NCBI GenBank assembly: GCA_016839625.1
Contig: JAEOTY010000113.1
Coordinates: forward strand, 1-32,060
Reading direction: 5' to 3'
Length of the DNA: 32,060 nt
From: Candidatus Hodarchaeota archaeon
Lineage (GTDB): Archaea; Asgardarchaeota; Heimdallarchaeia; Hodarchaeales; Hodarchaeaceae
Below the pieces are notes generated by a model. The model was given only the letters and a program-made list of their open reading frames with translations. It was not told the DNA's origin and did no database searches. Below, piece by piece: positions 6,125-21,994 of the stretch (within the stretch, counting starts at the first letter, position 1; each line of letters starts with the position of its first letter). A program made the translations under genes and the position numbers.

Positions 6125-7327
6125 TCAATTTTGCAAGTCGATTATTGTGGCAAGAGTGGCTTGGCATATTTTTTTCATAAATGAAAAATCTAAAGTATTT
6201 ATTGTATCTCCTCCGGTATGATAATAAGGATTACGAAATTTAGCTGTATCCGTGAGCATTATCGCTGGAAAACCAGCTCTCCAAAAAGGAGCATGATCAC
6301 TATTAAGAAGCGTAGGTATTTTTTGTTTTATTTCCTCATAAGATAAGGGAGTAGCAAATCGTAGGCAAGGAAGTTCAATTTCTTTATGTTGACAATTCTG
6401 AAAAAATGATTTTGCTAGCCTCTCTGAAGTGTCATCACTAACCACCAATACAAAATCTCCTATCATGTTTTTCTCATCGATTATATATTTATCCATGGTT
6501 TCCAGTGTCATAGCTGGAGGAAGGCTTTGTGAATGAGGTTTTGAGGATGTGAATCCAACCATTTCAAGATTTATGACTCCTTCAATATCTAATTTCTTTT
6601 CTACTGCTCTCTTGGTATATGCATTACTACCTAATATAGCAAAACTCCCAATAGGATCATCCACTCCTGTTTCACGATGTAATTGATTCCATTTTCTGAA
6701 AAAATCGAGCTCTTTCTCACTTAACTCCTGTTTCACAGAAGATTCAAACTGATTCCACTCATCTTCATCAAGGAATGGTTTTATCACCCCTGATGTTGAA
6801 ATCAGCTTCTTATATTGATCGTAACACTTTTTTATTGTCCAAGATACAAACCGATAAGATTCATCGTAAACACCATGTTTAATCCCCAGCTCCCGCACTT
6901 TTCTTTGGATATAAGGAGACCACTCTTCAAGGTTAAAACTGACGAAAACTACGTTCTTGTTATAATCCAAACGCTTTAGAATCCGAGCTATTTCTAACAT
7001 TATTGCAACTGCACTTGCATTGTCATCTGCCCCGGGAGTAGAATAAACGGTGTCATAATGACTCGTGACCAACATTGAACTATCATATTTAGTTTCTGGA
7101 TGAAGATAACCAACAATGTTGAAGAAAGGATGCTCAAATCCTTTAATCATAAACGGATGCTTTTCAAACTCCAGACCAAACTGCTTAAAAGCTGTTCCTA
7201 TATATTCACCTGTTTGCATGAGGGCTTTGTATGAGTCAAGAGGATGTCGAACTCCTTCTAGTGCCAACATATGATTATACAATCGTTCTATACTTACCAT
7301 TCCAAGTGCCTGCTCTATTGTAGACAT
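6125..7327 (-). CDS. M28-family zinc aminopeptidase-like protein
   Basis: Motifs SHYDTVYSTPGADDNASAVAIMLEIAR, VVFVSFNLEEW, NLEMVGF, LLNSDHAPFWRAGFPAIMLTDTA...YYHTGGDTINTLD. Confidence 0.88.
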   Translation of the reverse strand: MSTIEQALGMVSIERLYNHMLALEGVRHPLDSYKALMQTGEYIGTAFKQFGLEFEKHPFMIKGFEHPFFNIVGYLHPETKYDSSMLVTSHYDTVYSTPGADDNASAVAIMLEIARILKRLDYNKNVVFVSFNLEEWSPYIQRKVRELGIKHGVYDESYRFVSWTIKKCYDQYKKLISTSGVIKPFLDEDEWNQFESSVKQELSEKELDFFRKWNQLHRETGVDDPIGSFAILGSNAYTKRAVEKKLDIEGVINLEMVGFTSSKPHSQSLPPAMTLETMDKYIIDEKNMIGDFVLVVSDDTSERLAKSFFQNCQHKEIELPCLRFATPLSYEEIKQKIPTLLNSDHAPFWRAGFPAIMLTDTAKFRNPYYHTGGDTINTLDFSFMKKICQATLATIIDLQN

Positions 7328-7513: not shown

Positions 7514-9196
7514 GTGAAAAAAACACAAATCATGCTAATCAAGCTAGGTGGGAGTTTAATTACTCATAAAAAAGATATTCACCATATAGATCGTTATTTA
7601 GATCAATTAGATTTATACTTATCTGGTAAAGGATCACTAAGCGAATTAACGCAAAAAATTTCAGATTTAATGAATTATGAACGTTTGAATGAGATTTTTC
7701 AAACTTTATCTTTGTTTCTTACAAAAAATCCCCAAAGAAAGCTTATTTTGGTACATGGAGCAGGATCAATTGGTCATTCATTGGTCTTACACTTACTTAA
7801 AAGTCATTCGGATCTTCAAAACGTTTATCCCATAATTAAACTCGCCGTGGCATCTCAGAATCAAATAATTGTATCAACAGCGATAAGGCAGGGAATCAAT
7901 GCGGTCTCGTTTCCCTCTCACCCTCTTTTTGCAGGTGTATTCACAAAAAGTGTATCAACAAAGAGTTGTGATGCCCCGAATTTACGAATTCTTGAACAAT
8001 TAATCACTGAAACTGACGCAATCCCAGTGTTCTATGGAGATGTCGGCCATACTCCTAGCGGATGGAAAGTTTTTTCGGGTGATATATACCCTAGTGCTCT
8101 GATGAGACGTCTTAATATGACCTGTATCGATTCAACAATATTTTTAACAAGCGTTGAAGGCAAACGTACGGGTATTTACACCAAGGATCCCAGTTTCGAT
8201 GATGCTGAATATATAGCACGTATTGAAGTTGAGCCAAACGAGTTTACCAGTTATGGCTCAGATGGTCGATCTTTAACATTCAGTGGGGAGGAGATTGACA
8301 GGAATTTTGATGTCACTGAAGCAATGGGAGGGAAGCTTCGTAACCTCATTGAGTTAGCGAATGGGTATACGAGGTGTTGGGTTGTCGGTTTGGAGGAATT
8401 CGCTAAGGCTCTTGATGGTGAAGAGGTTGGTACTAGAATATTTCCAAAGAACCCCTCTCAAATGCGTGTGGCATTTTTAGGAACAGGAGATGCTTTTGGA
8501 TCAGGTGGACGTAAAAATGTATCGATTTTGGCTGAAATCGGAACACAAGGGATTCTATTAGATTGTGGACCACACATTTTGTCAGCTTTGAAACAATCTG
8601 GACGAAGTACGAATGATATCGACATGGTTTTAATAACACATTTTCACGGGGATCATTGTAGCGGTGTTCCGTTTCTCCTTTTAGAAGCCAGTATTCTACA
8701 ACAACGTAAAAAACCACTAATCATCGTTGGTCCTCCGAAGATTAAGGAAAACATCACTAAACTTTACTCAGCTTTGTATGTAAATGTTTCAAAAGAAGAA
8801 TTACCTTTTTCTTGTGAATTCATATCAATTAGTCCATCTAAGCCCCATGAGATCAATGGTATTAGCATCAAAGCATATAAAATGTTTCATACTCCTGAAG
8901 CACAGGCCTATCGATTAGATTCAAATAACATCTCTATAGCCTACTCAGGTGACACAGGATGGACGGAAAATTTGATTCCGTTAGTAAAGGATACCCAATT
9001 AGCAATCTTAGAATGTAATTCTTTTGACACTGAAATTCCAATTCACCTGAATTTTCATCAGGTTTCAAAACTTCATCCTTTAGCGGACCGATTAGCCCTG
9101 ATTCATTTAGGATCAGAAGTATTAGATCGAATTCCACTATCGGGGAAATCAAGTAATATATTTTTTCCTTTGGAAGGACAAGAAATAAGAATTTGA
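7514..9196 (+). CDS. Isopentenyl phosphate kinase fused to a metallo-beta-lactamase-fold hydrolase
   Basis: One uninterrupted 560-aa ORF (GTG start). N-terminal amino-acid-kinase fold: IMLIKLGGSLITHK, LVHGAGSIGH, EGKRTGIYTKDP, DVTEAMGGKLRNLIELA. From residue 317: MRVAFLGTGDAFGSGGRKNVS...ITHFHGDHCSGVPFL...YSGDTGW...LIHLGSEV. Confidence 0.85.
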   Translation: MKKTQIMLIKLGGSLITHKKDIHHIDRYLDQLDLYLSGKGSLSELTQKISDLMNYERLNEIFQTLSLFLTKNPQRKLILVHGAGSIGHSLVLHLLKSHSDLQNVYPIIKLAVASQNQIIVSTAIRQGINAVSFPSHPLFAGVFTKSVSTKSCDAPNLRILEQLITETDAIPVFYGDVGHTPSGWKVFSGDIYPSALMRRLNMTCIDSTIFLTSVEGKRTGIYTKDPSFDDAEYIARIEVEPNEFTSYGSDGRSLTFSGEEIDRNFDVTEAMGGKLRNLIELANGYTRCWVVGLEEFAKALDGEEVGTRIFPKNPSQMRVAFLGTGDAFGSGGRKNVSILAEIGTQGILLDCGPHILSALKQSGRSTNDIDMVLITHFHGDHCSGVPFLLLEASILQQRKKPLIIVGPPKIKENITKLYSALYVNVSKEELPFSCEFISISPSKPHEINGISIKAYKMFHTPEAQAYRLDSNNISIAYSGDTGWTENLIPLVKDTQLAILECNSFDTEIPIHLNFHQVSKLHPLADRLALIHLGSEVLDRIPLSGKSSNIFFPLEGQEIRI

Positions 9197-9824: not shown

Positions 9825-10379
9825 TTGTCGCAGGAAATCAAACACATCTTGAAGATTTTACTACTTGGTGATGGCGCTGTTGGAAAGACCTCGTTGATCT
9901 TGCGCTTCATTGAAAATAAGTTCAAAGAAGATTATTCAATGAGCTTGGGAGTTGACTTTTTAACCAAAACTGTAAGGTTTGTTGATGATCAAAATATTAC
10001 TAGGAATGTAGCTTTGCAGGTTTGGGATATTGCTGGGCAAGCACGACAGGTTTCATACTCTCATCTTTATTTAAAGGGTGCACTTGGCGCTTTTTATGTA
10101 TTCGATCTCACACGGCGAGAAACGCTCCTTCAGATGCAAGAAAGATGGCAAGCACAAGTATTAAAAGTATCTCCAAGATCCTTATCGATTCTAATCGGCA
10201 ATAAAGCGGATTTACGAAATGAACGAGCTTTAACCCAAGATGAGATTTCTAGAATCTCGCAGGCTATGCACGCCATTGATTATATTGAAACATCAGCTAA
10301 AACTGGCCAGAATGTCGATGAAGCATTTCAGACGCTGACAACCAGCATTTTAAAAGTCAAAGCGAAGAAATTCTTATGA
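9825..10379 (+). CDS. Rab/Ras-like small GTPase
   Basis: Complete G motifs: GDGAVGKTS (G1), LGVDF switch I region, WDIAGQ (G3), GNKADL (G4), ETSAKTG (G5). TTG start with an upstream GGAGAT. Confidence 0.93.
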   Translation: MSQEIKHILKILLLGDGAVGKTSLILRFIENKFKEDYSMSLGVDFLTKTVRFVDDQNITRNVALQVWDIAGQARQVSYSHLYLKGALGAFYVFDLTRRETLLQMQERWQAQVLKVSPRSLSILIGNKADLRNERALTQDEISRISQAMHAIDYIETSAKTGQNVDEAFQTLTTSILKVKAKKFL

Positions 10380-10392
10380 GGATTGGTGTAGA

Positions 10393-11166
10393 ATGTCGTT
10401 AGAACAGTTTAAAGCGATTAAAGCTTTTTTTATCTTTGAAAAAGAGACAGGAACCACATTATTTACACGATCTTTTGAAACTCAAGAACAAGAAACCAAA
10501 ACACCAGATGCACACCTAGTGGTGGCATTTTTAGCAGCGATTTTCTCTTTTGCAAAATCATCTTCATTAAGCGAACTTAGGGTTGTTGATATGACTGATT
10601 TACGATTCTCATTCATTGAAAGAGGTGGGTTAGTATTTGCTGCGCTAGCATCACCTCTCGTTAGCCCTTTGGATCTCCAGTTCAAATTAACCACCATAGG
10701 AAGTTTATTTTTAGAAGAATATGAATCTAAAATAAAGGAAATTCATTTTGTAGACACTGATGTTTTTGAATCGTTTGCAAATAAGGTTGATGAAGTTTTT
10801 ACTGGAGAAACTCGAGAAATGATGACAAGTTCAAAGAATGCAGCCCTTTTCTATCTAAAAAAATTAACCAAGGAGGACATTGGTGTGCGAGGAGCAATGA
10901 TTGTCTCTTTTACTGGAGATATCCTCATAGAATACAAAATGGACGTAAATCGTATGGCTGGCGCGATACGCATATTGAACGTTTCAACCTATATGAGGAA
11001 TCTAAGATATTTGGTTGTTTCTTCAGAAGCTACAAATTTAGTTGCCTATAAAATCAGTGAGGGACTCTTACTTTATGTTGATGGAGACCCCACATTTGGG
11101 TTAGAGAATCTTGTTGTGAAAGTCTCTGAAACTGTCAAACATGTAAAGGAAGTCATACCTCACTAA
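10393..11166 (+). CDS. Longin-like plus roadblock/LC7-like double-domain protein
   Basis: N-terminal AFFIFEKETGTTLFTRSF...LVVAFLAAIFSFAKSS...RFSFIERGGLVFAALASPL...LFLEEYESKI (longin-like). C-terminal VRGAMIVSFTGDILIEYKMDVNRMAGAIRILNVSTYMRNLRYLVVSSEATNLVAYKISEGLLLYV (roadblock-like). Confidence 0.65.
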   Translation: MSLEQFKAIKAFFIFEKETGTTLFTRSFETQEQETKTPDAHLVVAFLAAIFSFAKSSSLSELRVVDMTDLRFSFIERGGLVFAALASPLVSPLDLQFKLTTIGSLFLEEYESKIKEIHFVDTDVFESFANKVDEVFTGETREMMTSSKNAALFYLKKLTKEDIGVRGAMIVSFTGDILIEYKMDVNRMAGAIRILNVSTYMRNLRYLVVSSEATNLVAYKISEGLLLYVDGDPTFGLENLVVKVSETVKHVKEVIPH

Positions 11167-17339: not shown

Positions 17340-18137
17340 TTAATCGTAGCTGTAACTTAGATCAGGAAAAATGTTCTCTCGCACTTCACGATTATATTCT
17401 TGCACTGCTTTCAAAATCTGTCCTTTTAAGTCCAAATATCTTTTAACAAATTTTGCTTTGAAATCAAAATAACCCAACATATCGTAAGTAACTAAAACTT
17501 GACCATCGCAATGAGGCCCTGCGCCAATACCAATGGTTGGAACAGATAGTGCTTCTGTGATTTCTTTCGCTACTTGCCAAGGGATAGCTTCTAATACAAG
17601 AGAAAATATCCCTGATTCTTCTAGTTGTTTAGCTTCTTCTAAAAGAAATTGGGCAGCTTCCTTGGTTTTACCTTGTACTTTAAAACCCCCAAATTTATGG
17701 AAAGATTGTGGAGTAAGCCCTAGATGACCCATAACAGGAATCCCTGCATCCAGTATTCCTTTGATTGCTGCACTTCGCTCACTTCCCCCTTCCAGCTTTA
17801 TTGCTTCTGCATTTCCGATTTGGACTAGTTTAATAGAATTACGAACGGCCTCCTCTGCAGAAACTTGAAAAGTTCCGAAAGGTAAATCACCTATGACCAT
17901 TGCTTGCTTCACACCCCGAGCTACAGCCTGGGTATGACGAATCGAATCCTCTAAAGTAACAGCCAATGTATTTGGATTTCCAAGAACAACCATACCCATT
18001 GTATCCCCAACAAGCAACATATCAGTTCCAGCTTCATCCAAAATCGACGCCATAACGAAATCGTATGCCGTGAGCATGGTAATCTTTTCCCCCTTTTTCA
18101 TCATGTCTAATATATCTAAAACCGTTTTCTTCTTCAT
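17340..18137 (-). CDS. panB: 3-methyl-2-oxobutanoate hydroxymethyltransferase (ketopantoate hydroxymethyltransferase)
   Basis: MLTAYDFVMASILDEAGTDMLLVGDTMGMVVLG, GDLPFGTFQVS, IKLEGG, GIPVMGHLGLTPQS, TIGIGAGPHCDGQVLV. Confidence 0.96.
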   Translation of the reverse strand: MKKKTVLDILDMMKKGEKITMLTAYDFVMASILDEAGTDMLLVGDTMGMVVLGNPNTLAVTLEDSIRHTQAVARGVKQAMVIGDLPFGTFQVSAEEAVRNSIKLVQIGNAEAIKLEGGSERSAAIKGILDAGIPVMGHLGLTPQSFHKFGGFKVQGKTKEAAQFLLEEAKQLEESGIFSLVLEAIPWQVAKEITEALSVPTIGIGAGPHCDGQVLVTYDMLGYFDFKAKFVKRYLDLKGQILKAVQEYNREVRENIFPDLSYSYD

Positions 18138-18146
18138 AGTTTCACC

Positions 18147-18920
18147 TCAAATGTTTTTTTCACTAGCAAGCTCCTCAAGTCGCGACGACATAAATTTCAG
18201 GGCTTCCTGTAAGAGTTTTTTGTTGTTTAACTGCTTTTTCATAATTTCTAATTCCTGAATACTCAGATTTTCAAACTCCTCCGCGAAAGCAACCATTTCG
18301 GCCACTGCCCGAATGATATTATTTGTTATAGAAACTGATGCTGCAAGTGAAGTTCTTGAAAGTGGATTAAGATCGACAGTGACCACTTGTTTCCCCAATT
18401 TTTTCAGTGCCATTGTACGATCACCATCCTCTAATGGCACAAATACACAATCAGAAAGTGCAATGCCCCGTGAATCAACAATTCTTCGCTGATGAGAAAT
18501 CTCGGGTATAGATTCTTGGGTCTTAGGATCAATTCCATATATTTCCTGAGCACCCGCTCCTTTCAAAACCCTCTCAATTGCTTCTTCTCGTTCTTGTGTT
18601 CTATAAAAAAGATTAATTTCTAAAGTAGCATTAACTTTCTGACTTAATTGAACTATTTCTTGTGGGCATAATACCGCTACATTACCATTTATTGAAATAA
18701 TCGGATGATCTGCCAGTAATAATGTAATTACAGCTAACTTTTCTTGATGTAACGCGAAAGATGGAGTCGATTCTCCCAATATGTAGTCAAATGCTTCACC
18801 CCGACCATGTGCAATCAATCCAGCTTCAGCAACAATTTTTTGATGCATTCCTTCAATAATTTTCTCCCGAGTGATTAAAGATTCATAGCGGGGATGATCC
18901 TTTGGAACTTCTAGAGTCAT
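18147..18920 (-). CDS. 4-phosphopantoate--beta-alanine ligase (archaeal phosphopantothenate synthetase)
   Basis: PKDHPRYESLITREKIIEGM, AGLIAHGRGEAFDYILGE, NGNVAVLCP, LNPLSRTSLAASVSITNNIIRAV; adjacent to pantoate kinase. Confidence 0.92.
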   Translation of the reverse strand: MTLEVPKDHPRYESLITREKIIEGMHQKIVAEAGLIAHGRGEAFDYILGESTPSFALHQEKLAVITLLLADHPIISINGNVAVLCPQEIVQLSQKVNATLEINLFYRTQEREEAIERVLKGAGAQEIYGIDPKTQESIPEISHQRRIVDSRGIALSDCVFVPLEDGDRTMALKKLGKQVVTVDLNPLSRTSLAASVSITNNIIRAVAEMVAFAEEFENLSIQELEIMKKQLNNKKLLQEALKFMSSRLEELASEKNI

Positions 18921-18922
18921 TA

Positions 18923-19813
18923 TTATTCACGTCTTACAATAGTCTTCTGACAAATGTTTTCTCTGTTAATATGGGCCTTAGGCACCTTTATCTGGGCTAG
19001 GTCACCTTTTTCACGATAAAAAACGAAAAGTGCTTCTCCGAGCATGATTTGGGCCCCCACAACTGTTTGTGGTAAACTTTGAACCGACTTCTGCAATTGT
19101 GGAGACCAAAGGTTTGCTTTTTCCGAGAAAATTGCCGAAAGTCGAATGAAGTTTTCAAACCGAGGCCTAGAAATCAACTTAGAAATTAATCCCTTTCCAG
19201 CATTATTTACTGCTTTCCTTGTTAGGGGATTGGATAAAACCTCAAATGTTGAGAGAGGACCAAAATGAATAGTCGCTACTTTCCAACCATCGATACTGGT
19301 GATTGGTATCGTTTTCCCAAAACCAGGAGCTCCCTCCTTCAAACGGAGCTCCAAACCTCCTTGAAAAAGACCGATGACATCACCAAGTCCTGATCTATTT
19401 AAAACTTCAGCTTTATGGGCTACCTGAAGTAACTTTAACTCGGAAAATCCTAATCCCAAGTAATCATTTATCGCAAATGCTGTTCCTACCGCGCCTGCGG
19501 CAGAAGCACCATAACCAGAAGAAAGGGGAATTTCAAAGTCGTGAGTAATTTTTAGATTTGATCTTTCTTGTTGTGGAAGAAGAATCTCAAGCACGCTAGT
19601 GGTTACAGCTGCTTCTGTATTTTTTTGTTTAACTCCATTGAAAAAAATCTCAATTTTTGGACATTTTGATTGTTGAATAGTTGTTTTTACTCCTCTTTCA
19701 ATACAGAGTCCAGCACCCCTTGATCCTTTTGTCAATAAGTCATTGGATTCATCTTTAATTTCAAAAATTCCAGTTAAATGTGCAGCAACCCAGTAAGAAA
19801 CGTCATCTGTCAC
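18923..19813 (-). CDS. Pantoate kinase (GHMP superfamily, archaeal type)
   Basis: GHMP glycine-rich motif PLSSGYGASAAGAVGTAFAIN; gene order with the CoA genes. Confidence 0.9.
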   Translation of the reverse strand: MTDDVSYWVAAHLTGIFEIKDESNDLLTKGSRGAGLCIERGVKTTIQQSKCPKIEIFFNGVKQKNTEAAVTTSVLEILLPQQERSNLKITHDFEIPLSSGYGASAAGAVGTAFAINDYLGLGFSELKLLQVAHKAEVLNRSGLGDVIGLFQGGLELRLKEGAPGFGKTIPITSIDGWKVATIHFGPLSTFEVLSNPLTRKAVNNAGKGLISKLISRPRFENFIRLSAIFSEKANLWSPQLQKSVQSLPQTVVGAQIMLGEALFVFYREKGDLAQIKVPKAHINRENICQKTIVRRE

Positions 19814-19826
19814 AGAAATTCCTTCG

Positions 19827-20747
19827 TTATTGTGGATATTTTTCTAAATGGCGAATTAGATCAGTTATAGCTGCGTTAACTGGAGCTTTCAGGCCTAATC
19901 GATTACTTTCCCGCACAATAAACCCATTAATATAATCTATCTCAGTTCTGCGTCCTCGTTCGATATCCTGAAGCATACTACACTTATTATCCTTAGTTAT
20001 CTCTAATACTTTAAGAACGAATTTCCGCGTTTGTGAAAAATCTTCTTCAGGCAAAGTATGAGCTACAACTTCTAATCCTTCTCGTAGGATAGAATCAAAG
20101 ATTTGCTGAATCGAAGGTTTTTGTAGGATTTCACCATTTGGAACGTGTAAAAGTGCTCCTAAAGGACAGATTGCTGCATTTGTCAACAGCTTTTGCCACA
20201 TCTTTCGTTGAATATCAGCTGTTTTCTGTGTGTTAAACCCTGAATTCTTCATAATATCCTGAATTTTTGGACCATAACCATTTTCATGACCCGCAATTAT
20301 ACCAAAGGAAGTTTTGCCAAATGAAACATGTTTAACTATACCAGGATGAATTAATTCCGCTGCCTCAGTAGTAATCGCACGAAAAATCGGATTGTGTGGA
20401 AAATTTTTTCGGAAAACTTCTTCATTACCCATTCCATTTTGCATGACGAAAATTGGGGTTTGGTCTGTTAGCTTTCCATTCATACTTTTTGCTACAATAG
20501 TATTATCGTAAGCTTTTGTAGTAACAAAAACAGCTTCAGGAGTAATAACATCAGGCTGAAAATCAGTAGCAGCTGGAAAATGAGACACAAATTTTTTCTG
20601 ATTTTCAATGATAAGAAGACCATTTCGATTAATTTCAGCTATGTGAGGCTCACGGCCAACAACTGCCACATCAAAACCTGAATAGGCTATTCTGCCAGCA
20701 AAGAGAGATCCAATGCTACCAGCACCAAATACGGTAATATTCATCAA
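19827..20747 (-). CDS. panE: 2-dehydropantoate 2-reductase (ketopantoate reductase)
   Basis: NAD(P)-binding ITVFGAGSIGSLFAGRIAYSGFDVAVVGR; KLLTNAAICPLGALLHVPNGEI; DIERGRRTEIDYINGFIV. Confidence 0.94.
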   Translation of the reverse strand: MMNITVFGAGSIGSLFAGRIAYSGFDVAVVGREPHIAEINRNGLLIIENQKKFVSHFPAATDFQPDVITPEAVFVTTKAYDNTIVAKSMNGKLTDQTPIFVMQNGMGNEEVFRKNFPHNPIFRAITTEAAELIHPGIVKHVSFGKTSFGIIAGHENGYGPKIQDIMKNSGFNTQKTADIQRKMWQKLLTNAAICPLGALLHVPNGEILQKPSIQQIFDSILREGLEVVAHTLPEEDFSQTRKFVLKVLEITKDNKCSMLQDIERGRRTEIDYINGFIVRESNRLGLKAPVNAAITDLIRHLEKYPQ

Positions 20748-21994
20748 TTATCACTCCGATTAATAAATTCCTCAGTAATGATTTCAGCAATCCGTTTACC
20801 AATGACCATCTTTGAGTCTTTAAGATGTAAGGGTGGAATATTCGGTCGAATAATAAATAATTCGTTAGTTTTTGACACAAACCCTTTTTCTGGTTCACCT
20901 ACCCAATTGGCACAAACCATTTCTAGCTGGTGCTTGTTGAGAAAATCTCTCCCCCTCTTTATAAGGTCATCCTCGGCAATCCCCACTTCAGCTTTATATG
21001 CAACGATGTATAAATCTGGAAAGCTGTTTCGTATATCTTCAACAACCTTGATTGTAGGAACTAGTGTAATTGATAAATCTGTTTGTTTGGAAGGTATTTT
21101 TCCAGATTGATATTGTGGTTTATAATCTGAAACAGCAGCAATAGAGATGAAACCGTGATAATTGAGAGAGGAAAGCTCTGTTCTCACTGTTTCATATAAA
21201 TCCTGTGTTGATTGAACAGTTTTCACGGGAACTGTTAATGTTTCTAAATCCAGATTGTGACTCTCACCGAGGACAAGAAGGATCTCCGCTCCGTGATTTT
21301 TTAGAGCCTGAGCAACATAAAAAGCCGATAATCCAGTAGAAGGATTAGAAATAAAGCGGACATCATCCAAATATTCACGTGTTGCACCCCCCGTAATTAA
21401 AAACTTCTTAGATTTTAGCCTTTTTGAAGAATCAATCAGCTCGAAAATGCACTTCATTAGATCGTTTAATGGTGGAAATTTACGCTTGTTTTCCATTTCA
21501 GATGAGACCAAAAAATGAACATTTTGATGCTTTAGATATGAGATATTTCTTTCAGTAATAGGATTATCTAATAAAACAGTATGAGCTGCGGGAACAACTA
21601 GAAGAGGAATTTCAGCTCCGAATGAGGATAAGGCAGCCAAAGTAACTGGGCCATCTGCAACCCCATTAGCAAGTTTAGAAATAGTATTTGCAGTTGCAGG
21701 GCAAATTAAACATAGGTCAACTTTATAATCAGGATTTGAAACCCATTTTACATGTTCAGAGATTCCAGAGATTTCTGTTATTGGTTCTTTATCCATACAC
21801 CAAGTTAACGCGTCTTTGGTGACAAATCGTGTCGCATCATTCGAAAGTACAACAACTGGATCACCCTCGTACCGTAAAATTTCCCGAACAAGATGGGGAA
21901 CTTCTATAGCTGCTATAGAGCCTGTAACTCCAATTAAAATACGTTTATTCCTTAATCGATCTCCTTTGGCTCCGTAGATTTCAGCTATTCCCAT
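20744..21994 (-). CDS. coaBC: Bifunctional phosphopantothenoylcysteine decarboxylase / phosphopantothenate--cysteine ligase
   Basis: RILIGVTGSIAAIEVPHLVREI, CPATANTISKLANGVAD, FLITGGATREYLDDVRFISNPSTGLSAFYVAQAL. 4-nt overlap with panE. Confidence 0.93.
   Translation of the reverse strand: MGIAEIYGAKGDRLRNKRILIGVTGSIAAIEVPHLVREILRYEGDPVVVLSNDATRFVTKDALTWCMDKEPITEISGISEHVKWVSNPDYKVDLCLICPATANTISKLANGVADGPVTLAALSSFGAEIPLLVVPAAHTVLLDNPITERNISYLKHQNVHFLVSSEMENKRKFPPLNDLMKCIFELIDSSKRLKSKKFLITGGATREYLDDVRFISNPSTGLSAFYVAQALKNHGAEILLVLGESHNLDLETLTVPVKTVQSTQDLYETVRTELSSLNYHGFISIAAVSDYKPQYQSGKIPSKQTDLSITLVPTIKVVEDIRNSFPDLYIVAYKAEVGIAEDDLIKRGRDFLNKHQLEMVCANWVGEPEKGFVSKTNELFIIRPNIPPLHLKDSKMVIGKRIAEIITEEFINRSDN

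Follow-up and report, generated by a model that had tools for sequence, protein, structure and literature searches.

A gene that joins an isopentenyl phosphate kinase (IPK)-type kinase to a metallo-beta-lactamase (MBL)-fold hydrolase lies within the 32,060-nucleotide stretch of DNA analysed here (the window; contig JAEOTY010000113.1 of a Candidatus Hodarchaeota archaeon). The fusion is genuine and conserved in the genus. Its architecture and the clade formed by its kinase are new, and both domain families are known. As the original prediction had supposed, the fusion appears not to have been described previously: no description was found in the open-licence literature. We tentatively interpret the protein as a bifunctional phosphate-metabolite enzyme, composed of a divergent IPK paralogue and a short exosite-less MBL phosphoesterase, in which the product of the hydrolase would be re-phosphorylated by the kinase. 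We give this reading somewhat less than an even chance.

According to one proposal, the archaea most closely related to eukaryotes are the Hodarchaea (PMC11052028), the group that carries the fusion, and their isoprenoid metabolism combines enzymes of archaeal type with others of eukaryotic type. The two families involved, divergent IPK paralogues and short MBL phosphoesterases, both include orphan members, and the fusion to a partner offers a strong hint at their function. Should the kinase be an IPK, the fusion would represent a new way of controlling the supply of isopentenyl diphosphate (IPP); if it is not, the fusion marks a new phosphate metabolite.

Organization of the fusion gene

The two complete domains are encoded by one 560-residue reading frame with no stop between them, as predicted from the sequence, and both the motifs and the domain boundaries had been placed accurately (Table 1). 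Residues 6–240 match the Pfam family AA_kinase (E-value 2.3e-16) and residues 347–521 match Lactamase_B_2 (E-value 2.2e-17), both above the gathering scores; the hydrolase half reaches 63.7 bits against PF12706, the gathering score of which is 27. The chance of 560 consecutive stop-free codons is about 1e-18 at the base composition of the window, with homology not yet counted.

Table 1. Features of the fusion gene and of the protein that it encodes
Feature	Positions in the window	Strand	Basis
Fusion gene, whole	7514..9196	+	560 aa from a GTG start codon without internal stop; full-length homologues
IPK-type amino-acid-kinase domain, residues 1–312	7514..8449	+	Pfam AA_kinase; NF040647 match below cut-off; PDB profile matches to IPKs only
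N-terminal insertion of the fused kinase between K19 and K76	7571..7738	+	Segment length in alignment
HGAGSIGH loop with IPK-type histidine H88, followed by shortened loop	7754..7777	+	Alignment
Four-residue insertion, V214–G220 segment of the fused kinase	8156..8170	+	Alignment
DVTEAMGGK motif of the fused kinase with conserved Lys 274	8309..8335	+	Alignment
Junction from kinase-end GTRI to first MBL strand FLG, linker of about 10 residues	8432..8473	+	In frame in all homologues
MBL-fold hydrolase domain, residues 313–560	8450..9193	+	Pfam Lactamase_B_2; Foldseek top matches 1zkp and YhfI (6kns)
HFHGDH metal motif: ligands H376, H378, D380, H381 invariant, F377 variable	8639..8656	+	Alignment
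Further metal ligands H459 (8888-8890), D480 (8951-8953), H531 (9104-9106), all invariant	8888..9106	+	Alignment

A misassembly, missed stop, or frameshift that merged two genes is refuted as the origin of the fusion. The window belongs to a metagenome-assembled genome (MAG), and among related records, some that are presented as "single-contig" consist of several contigs linked by runs of N; nevertheless, the identical in-frame fusion is present in ten separately assembled genomes, nine besides that of the window. Identity at codon positions 1, 2, and 3 of junction residues 300–320 is 55, 63, and 35% in the alignment of homologues, which is the usual coding pattern. Among the fusion homologues, a methionine near residue 317 is confined to the window sequence, and the MBL domain therefore has no conserved separate start. 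A scan for sigma-70-type promoters, a model ill-suited to archaea, gave no excess over shuffled sequences.

Distribution of the fusion

The search of related genomes suggested by the original prediction recovered complete copies of the same open fusion in 10 of the 12 genomes of the genus (Hodarchaeota, Asgard), with 49–62% identity to the window sequence. A run of N replaces the N-terminal half of the fusion in genome G009, and genome G011 (74% complete) is without it. Eleven full-length fusion sequences could be aligned end to end, and their metal ligands and kinase catalytic residues are invariant. By name, the fusion-bearing records are MAGs of Hodarchaeota and Heimdallarchaeota, including Ca. 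Hodarchaeum mangrovi. The single-contig records of the genus (CP0706xx/CP0707xx; L016, L223, L238, L239) are interrupted by stretches of about 100 N, which look like joins between contigs, and it is such a stretch that cuts the G009 fusion gene.

Outside the genus, no full-length fusion was detected when 232 Asgard genomes were searched with a profile, and none by a pattern scan of 85,462 species, which used two short patterns that distant copies may escape. No viral copies were found. The 2,107-base contig L070 (G117:C113) of a Lokiarchaeota-labelled MAG encodes the first 225 residues of the fusion, up to the contig end, with about 50% identity. It is likely that this partial copy is a misbinned Hodarchaeal contig.

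Structure and relationships of the kinase half

The original prediction identified the N-terminal half as an IPK. This holds for the fold, the family, and the catalytic set of Lys, Gly, His, and Asp residues, whereas the score and the phylogenetic position set the fused kinase apart. A profile of the kinase half matched only IPKs in the PDB, and the fused kinase shares with IPKs (NF040647; PDB 8u0k, 3ll9, 7lnt, 3lkk, and 3k4o) the fold and residues K10, GG, K19, H88, GD176, SGD190, D266, and K274. Positions 10, 12, 13, 19, 88, 176, 188–190, 266, and 274 are identical in all the fusions and IPKs compared. However, unlike IPKs, the fused kinase is joined to an MBL domain, and its scores against NF040647, 70.3 bits in the genome of the window (G000) and about 69–90 bits across the genus with a maximum of 90.4, are below the curated IPK cut-off of 120 bits. 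The genome of the window additionally encodes a stand-alone IPK (G000:C222) that scores 165.6 bits, and stand-alone IPKs above the cut-off are present in nine of the 12 genomes of the genus, including this one.

The fused kinases form one clade, with a support of 99/99, apart from the stand-alone IPKs; those of the genus group with the IPK of genome G012, which is encoded in an mvk-ipk cluster together with an rpsB-like gene and the mevalonate kinase gene. The segment between K19 and K76 has 58 residues in the fused kinase and 25–44 in the stand-alone Heimdallarchaeia IPKs compared. The loop after H88 is 19 residues long, in contrast to 22–28 in the IPKs compared, and the V214–G220 segment, located before GIY, contains seven residues instead of the three found in all of them. 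Four conserved IPK positions are replaced: L115 by Q, S136 by H, F/Y184 by W, and I/L193 by P. Positions 115 and 136 vary little or not at all among the compared IPKs, and each has a different but constant residue in the fusions. These changes may reflect an altered substrate preference. Judging by its sequence, the fused kinase is a divergent IPK paralogue, which constitutes a second copy in most of the genomes. Isopentenyl phosphate (IP) is uncertain as its substrate because of the low score, the distinct clade, the altered conserved positions, and the separate IPK in the genome. Since conserved IPK positions are lost and the loop after the catalytic histidine differs, the substrate is probably other than IP alone. 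An attempt to locate the engineered M. alvus IPK residue I74 in the fusion sequence was abandoned because the alignments disagree. In the glycine-rich loop of the stand-alone IPKs of the genus (L177–L185), the histidine of the HG pair is replaced by threonine, and these enzymes have D-A-S in place of D-V-T.

In the tree, an unfused kinase from a neighbouring family (G049:C387, L053:607-1680) is placed as sister to the fused clade, with a support of 96/94, and forms a single long branch. Its other matches at E <= 1e-8 among the 232 Asgard genomes are all fused kinases. It has the V214–G220 insertion, common only to the fusions and this kinase, as well as the long N-terminal segment, the short loop after the histidine, and W184/P193. 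However, it is without an MBL domain and has leucine at position 81 and alanine at position 87. The gene is located upstream of cofD (1737-2705) on the same strand, separated by a 57-base gap. A phospholactate-like substrate is therefore conceivable, and the fusion might act in the metabolism of coenzyme F420 or of a different phospho-acid cofactor. The CofD of this locus scores above its cut-off, and CofD is also encoded in the fusion-bearing genomes tested. Nevertheless, the association comes from one genome and one long-branched kinase, and in none of its loci is the fusion gene near cofD, which makes a role in cofactor synthesis improbable.

Structure and relationships of the hydrolase half

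For the hydrolase half, the AlphaFold model has a mean pLDDT of 80 and a pTM of 0.74, and its Foldseek matches include 1zkp, YhfI (6kns), Apyc1, RNase Z, PhnP, and a PhnP-family diphosphatase. The original assignment of this half as RNase Z-like could not be upheld. The MBL core and the order of the ligands are those of RNase Z/ELAC1, and RNase Z models give the best family-model scores; however, every score is far under its cut-off (102.5 bits against TIGR02651, one third of the cut-off of 292.95). The tRNase Z exosite is absent, as the hydrolase half has no counterpart of residues 155–203 of B. subtilis RNase Z (1y44), the whole stretch between residues 154 and 204. Membership of RNase Z was rejected because of the missing exosite and the low score. 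A nuclease of the RNase Z kind, with the kinase as partner or regulator, is highly improbable for the same reasons, and because the fused MBL domain belongs to a different supported subfamily in a quick tree. The tree, read without L069 (wrong frame) and L030 (long branch), places the fused MBL domains, at subfamily level, with stand-alone MBLs of Heimdallarchaeia and with bacterial MBLs. The stand-alone relatives from other Heimdallarchaeia families (L166–L168, L170, L172, L174, L055) mostly adjoin a ThiF/MoeB-like E1 gene.

In its modelled fold, the hydrolase half resembles small-molecule phosphodiesterases (YhfI, Apyc1, PhnP). It shares the short exosite-less fold, the HxHxDH motif, and the further ligands with the class-II phosphodiesterases YhfI, phage Apyc1, and Rv1339, but the identity is about 20–24%, the tree separates the subfamilies, and a common substrate is not known. 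YhfI favours cAMP and cGMP (PMC9117128), and Rv1339 is a cAMP phosphodiesterase (PMC9293780). An anti-phage role was rejected because PADLOC identified no anti-phage system match for the fusion and the score against the Apyc1 model PF23023 was too low (27.4 bits, gathering score 50).

The nearest bacterial relatives, with 31–39% identity and in the same supported subfamily, are MBLs of Myxococcota. Unlike the fused domain, they are stand-alone proteins in a cell-wall-recycling setting, encoded between MurU-like and AnmK genes and beside an AmgK-like gene. In L080:5689-10078 and its Myxococcota relatives, the short MBL gene (7992-8729 in L080) follows the AmgK-like gene and overlaps the MurU-like one, and AnmK is convergent. 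The route from AnmK to AmgK otherwise lacks one step, a MurNAc-6-phosphate phosphatase, for which the short MBL is therefore a candidate.

By description rather than sequence, a further parallel is the H. volcanii "NZ" protein HVO_2763, an exosite-less RNase-Z-like MBL encoded beside the IPK HVO_2762 (PMC3296008). In contrast to the fusion, these are separate genes, the neighbourhood of which is, according to the authors, not conserved even among close relatives, and HVO_2763 had no activity in vitro on RNA or chromogenic substrates (PMC3296008).

Proposed reaction of the fusion protein

In the bifunctional enzyme that we favour, two metal ions of the hydrolase half would cleave a small-molecule phosphodiester or phosphoanhydride to a phosphomonoester, as inferred from the nearest characterised relatives. 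The kinase half, acting as IPKs do, would convert the phosphomonoester and ATP to a diphosphate. The product of the hydrolase would thus be the substrate of the kinase, which is the simplest reason for fusing the two. This order of reactions, chosen on chemical grounds, would give each half a use and avoid a futile cycle. The proposal is supported by the invariance of both active sites among proteins that share about 50% identity overall. Both halves have separate, unfused relatives in a neighbouring family, and the sugar-phosphate setting of the Myxococcota MBLs also speaks for the proposal. Against it stand the possible IPK role of the fused kinase in genome G010, discussed below, the placement of the sister kinase on one long branch, and the closest archaeal study of a related exosite-less MBL, which found no phosphodiesterase activity with chromogenic substrates (PMC3296008). 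A more specific version is rather unlikely: a new two-step enzyme, in which the hydrolase would free a phosphomonoester other than IP from a diester or nucleotide-linked metabolite and a neofunctionalised IPK half would convert it to the diphosphate, which archaea are not known to do.

Isoprenoid pathway and gene neighbourhood

In the main alternative, a true IPK is paired with a phosphatase for IPP or for a side product, and the pair would set the ratio of IP to IPP in a mevalonate pathway of the archaeal type. It has in its favour the complete IPK catalytic set, the IPK-only matches in the PDB, and the adjacent MBL and IPK genes of H. volcanii. Furthermore, AcnX is encoded in 11 of the 12 genomes of the genus, and IP is therefore expected to be made. 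Diphosphomevalonate decarboxylase scored above the cut-off in five of the 12, and the distribution of the two enzymes is in line with the mixed mevalonate pathways reported for Hodarchaeales (PMC11052028). Genome G010 (96% complete) encodes AcnX, and no stand-alone IPK was found in it; because the assembly contains runs of N, this absence is provisional. If the enzyme is truly absent, the fused kinase may act as the IPK of the G010 lineage. However, a separate curated IPK is present in nine of the 12 genomes, the pocket-side positions and loops of the fused kinase are divergent, and the fusion gene is outside any mevalonate gene cluster. The literature searched yielded no MBL with prenyl-diphosphatase activity, and the Haloferax arrangement is not conserved. 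We consider this alternative unlikely. A kinase–phosphatase pair may control the IP:IPP ratio, as originally suggested, but none of the findings speaks for this rather than for the hydrolase-then-kinase sequence.

A DUF92 gene precedes the IPK gene in G000 and another gene in G010. In L057:2085-3844, the stand-alone IPK gene overlaps the end of a DUF92 membrane-protein gene by four bases. The plant phytyl phosphate kinase VTE6 belongs to the DUF92 family, and the overlap suggests isoprenoid-alcohol salvage.

The fusion gene is preceded by an M42 peptidase gene in most loci, and by an M28 peptidase gene in the window (6125-7327, - strand) and in L059 (6700-7917). The M42 neighbour was set aside as a functional clue because the window lacks it and because many neighbouring genes keep their order throughout this genus. 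A Ras-family GTPase gene and then a weak match to a longin domain (9825-11166 in the window) adjoin the fusion in all 12 long loci compared. A coenzyme A cluster at 17340-21994 of the window (- strand) contains, according to Pfam, ketopantoate hydroxymethyltransferase, phosphopantothenate synthetase, a GHMP kinase that is likely to be pantoate kinase, ketopantoate reductase, and Dfp/CoaBC. Three other loci encode a relative of the ketopantoate hydroxymethyltransferase downstream of the fusion.
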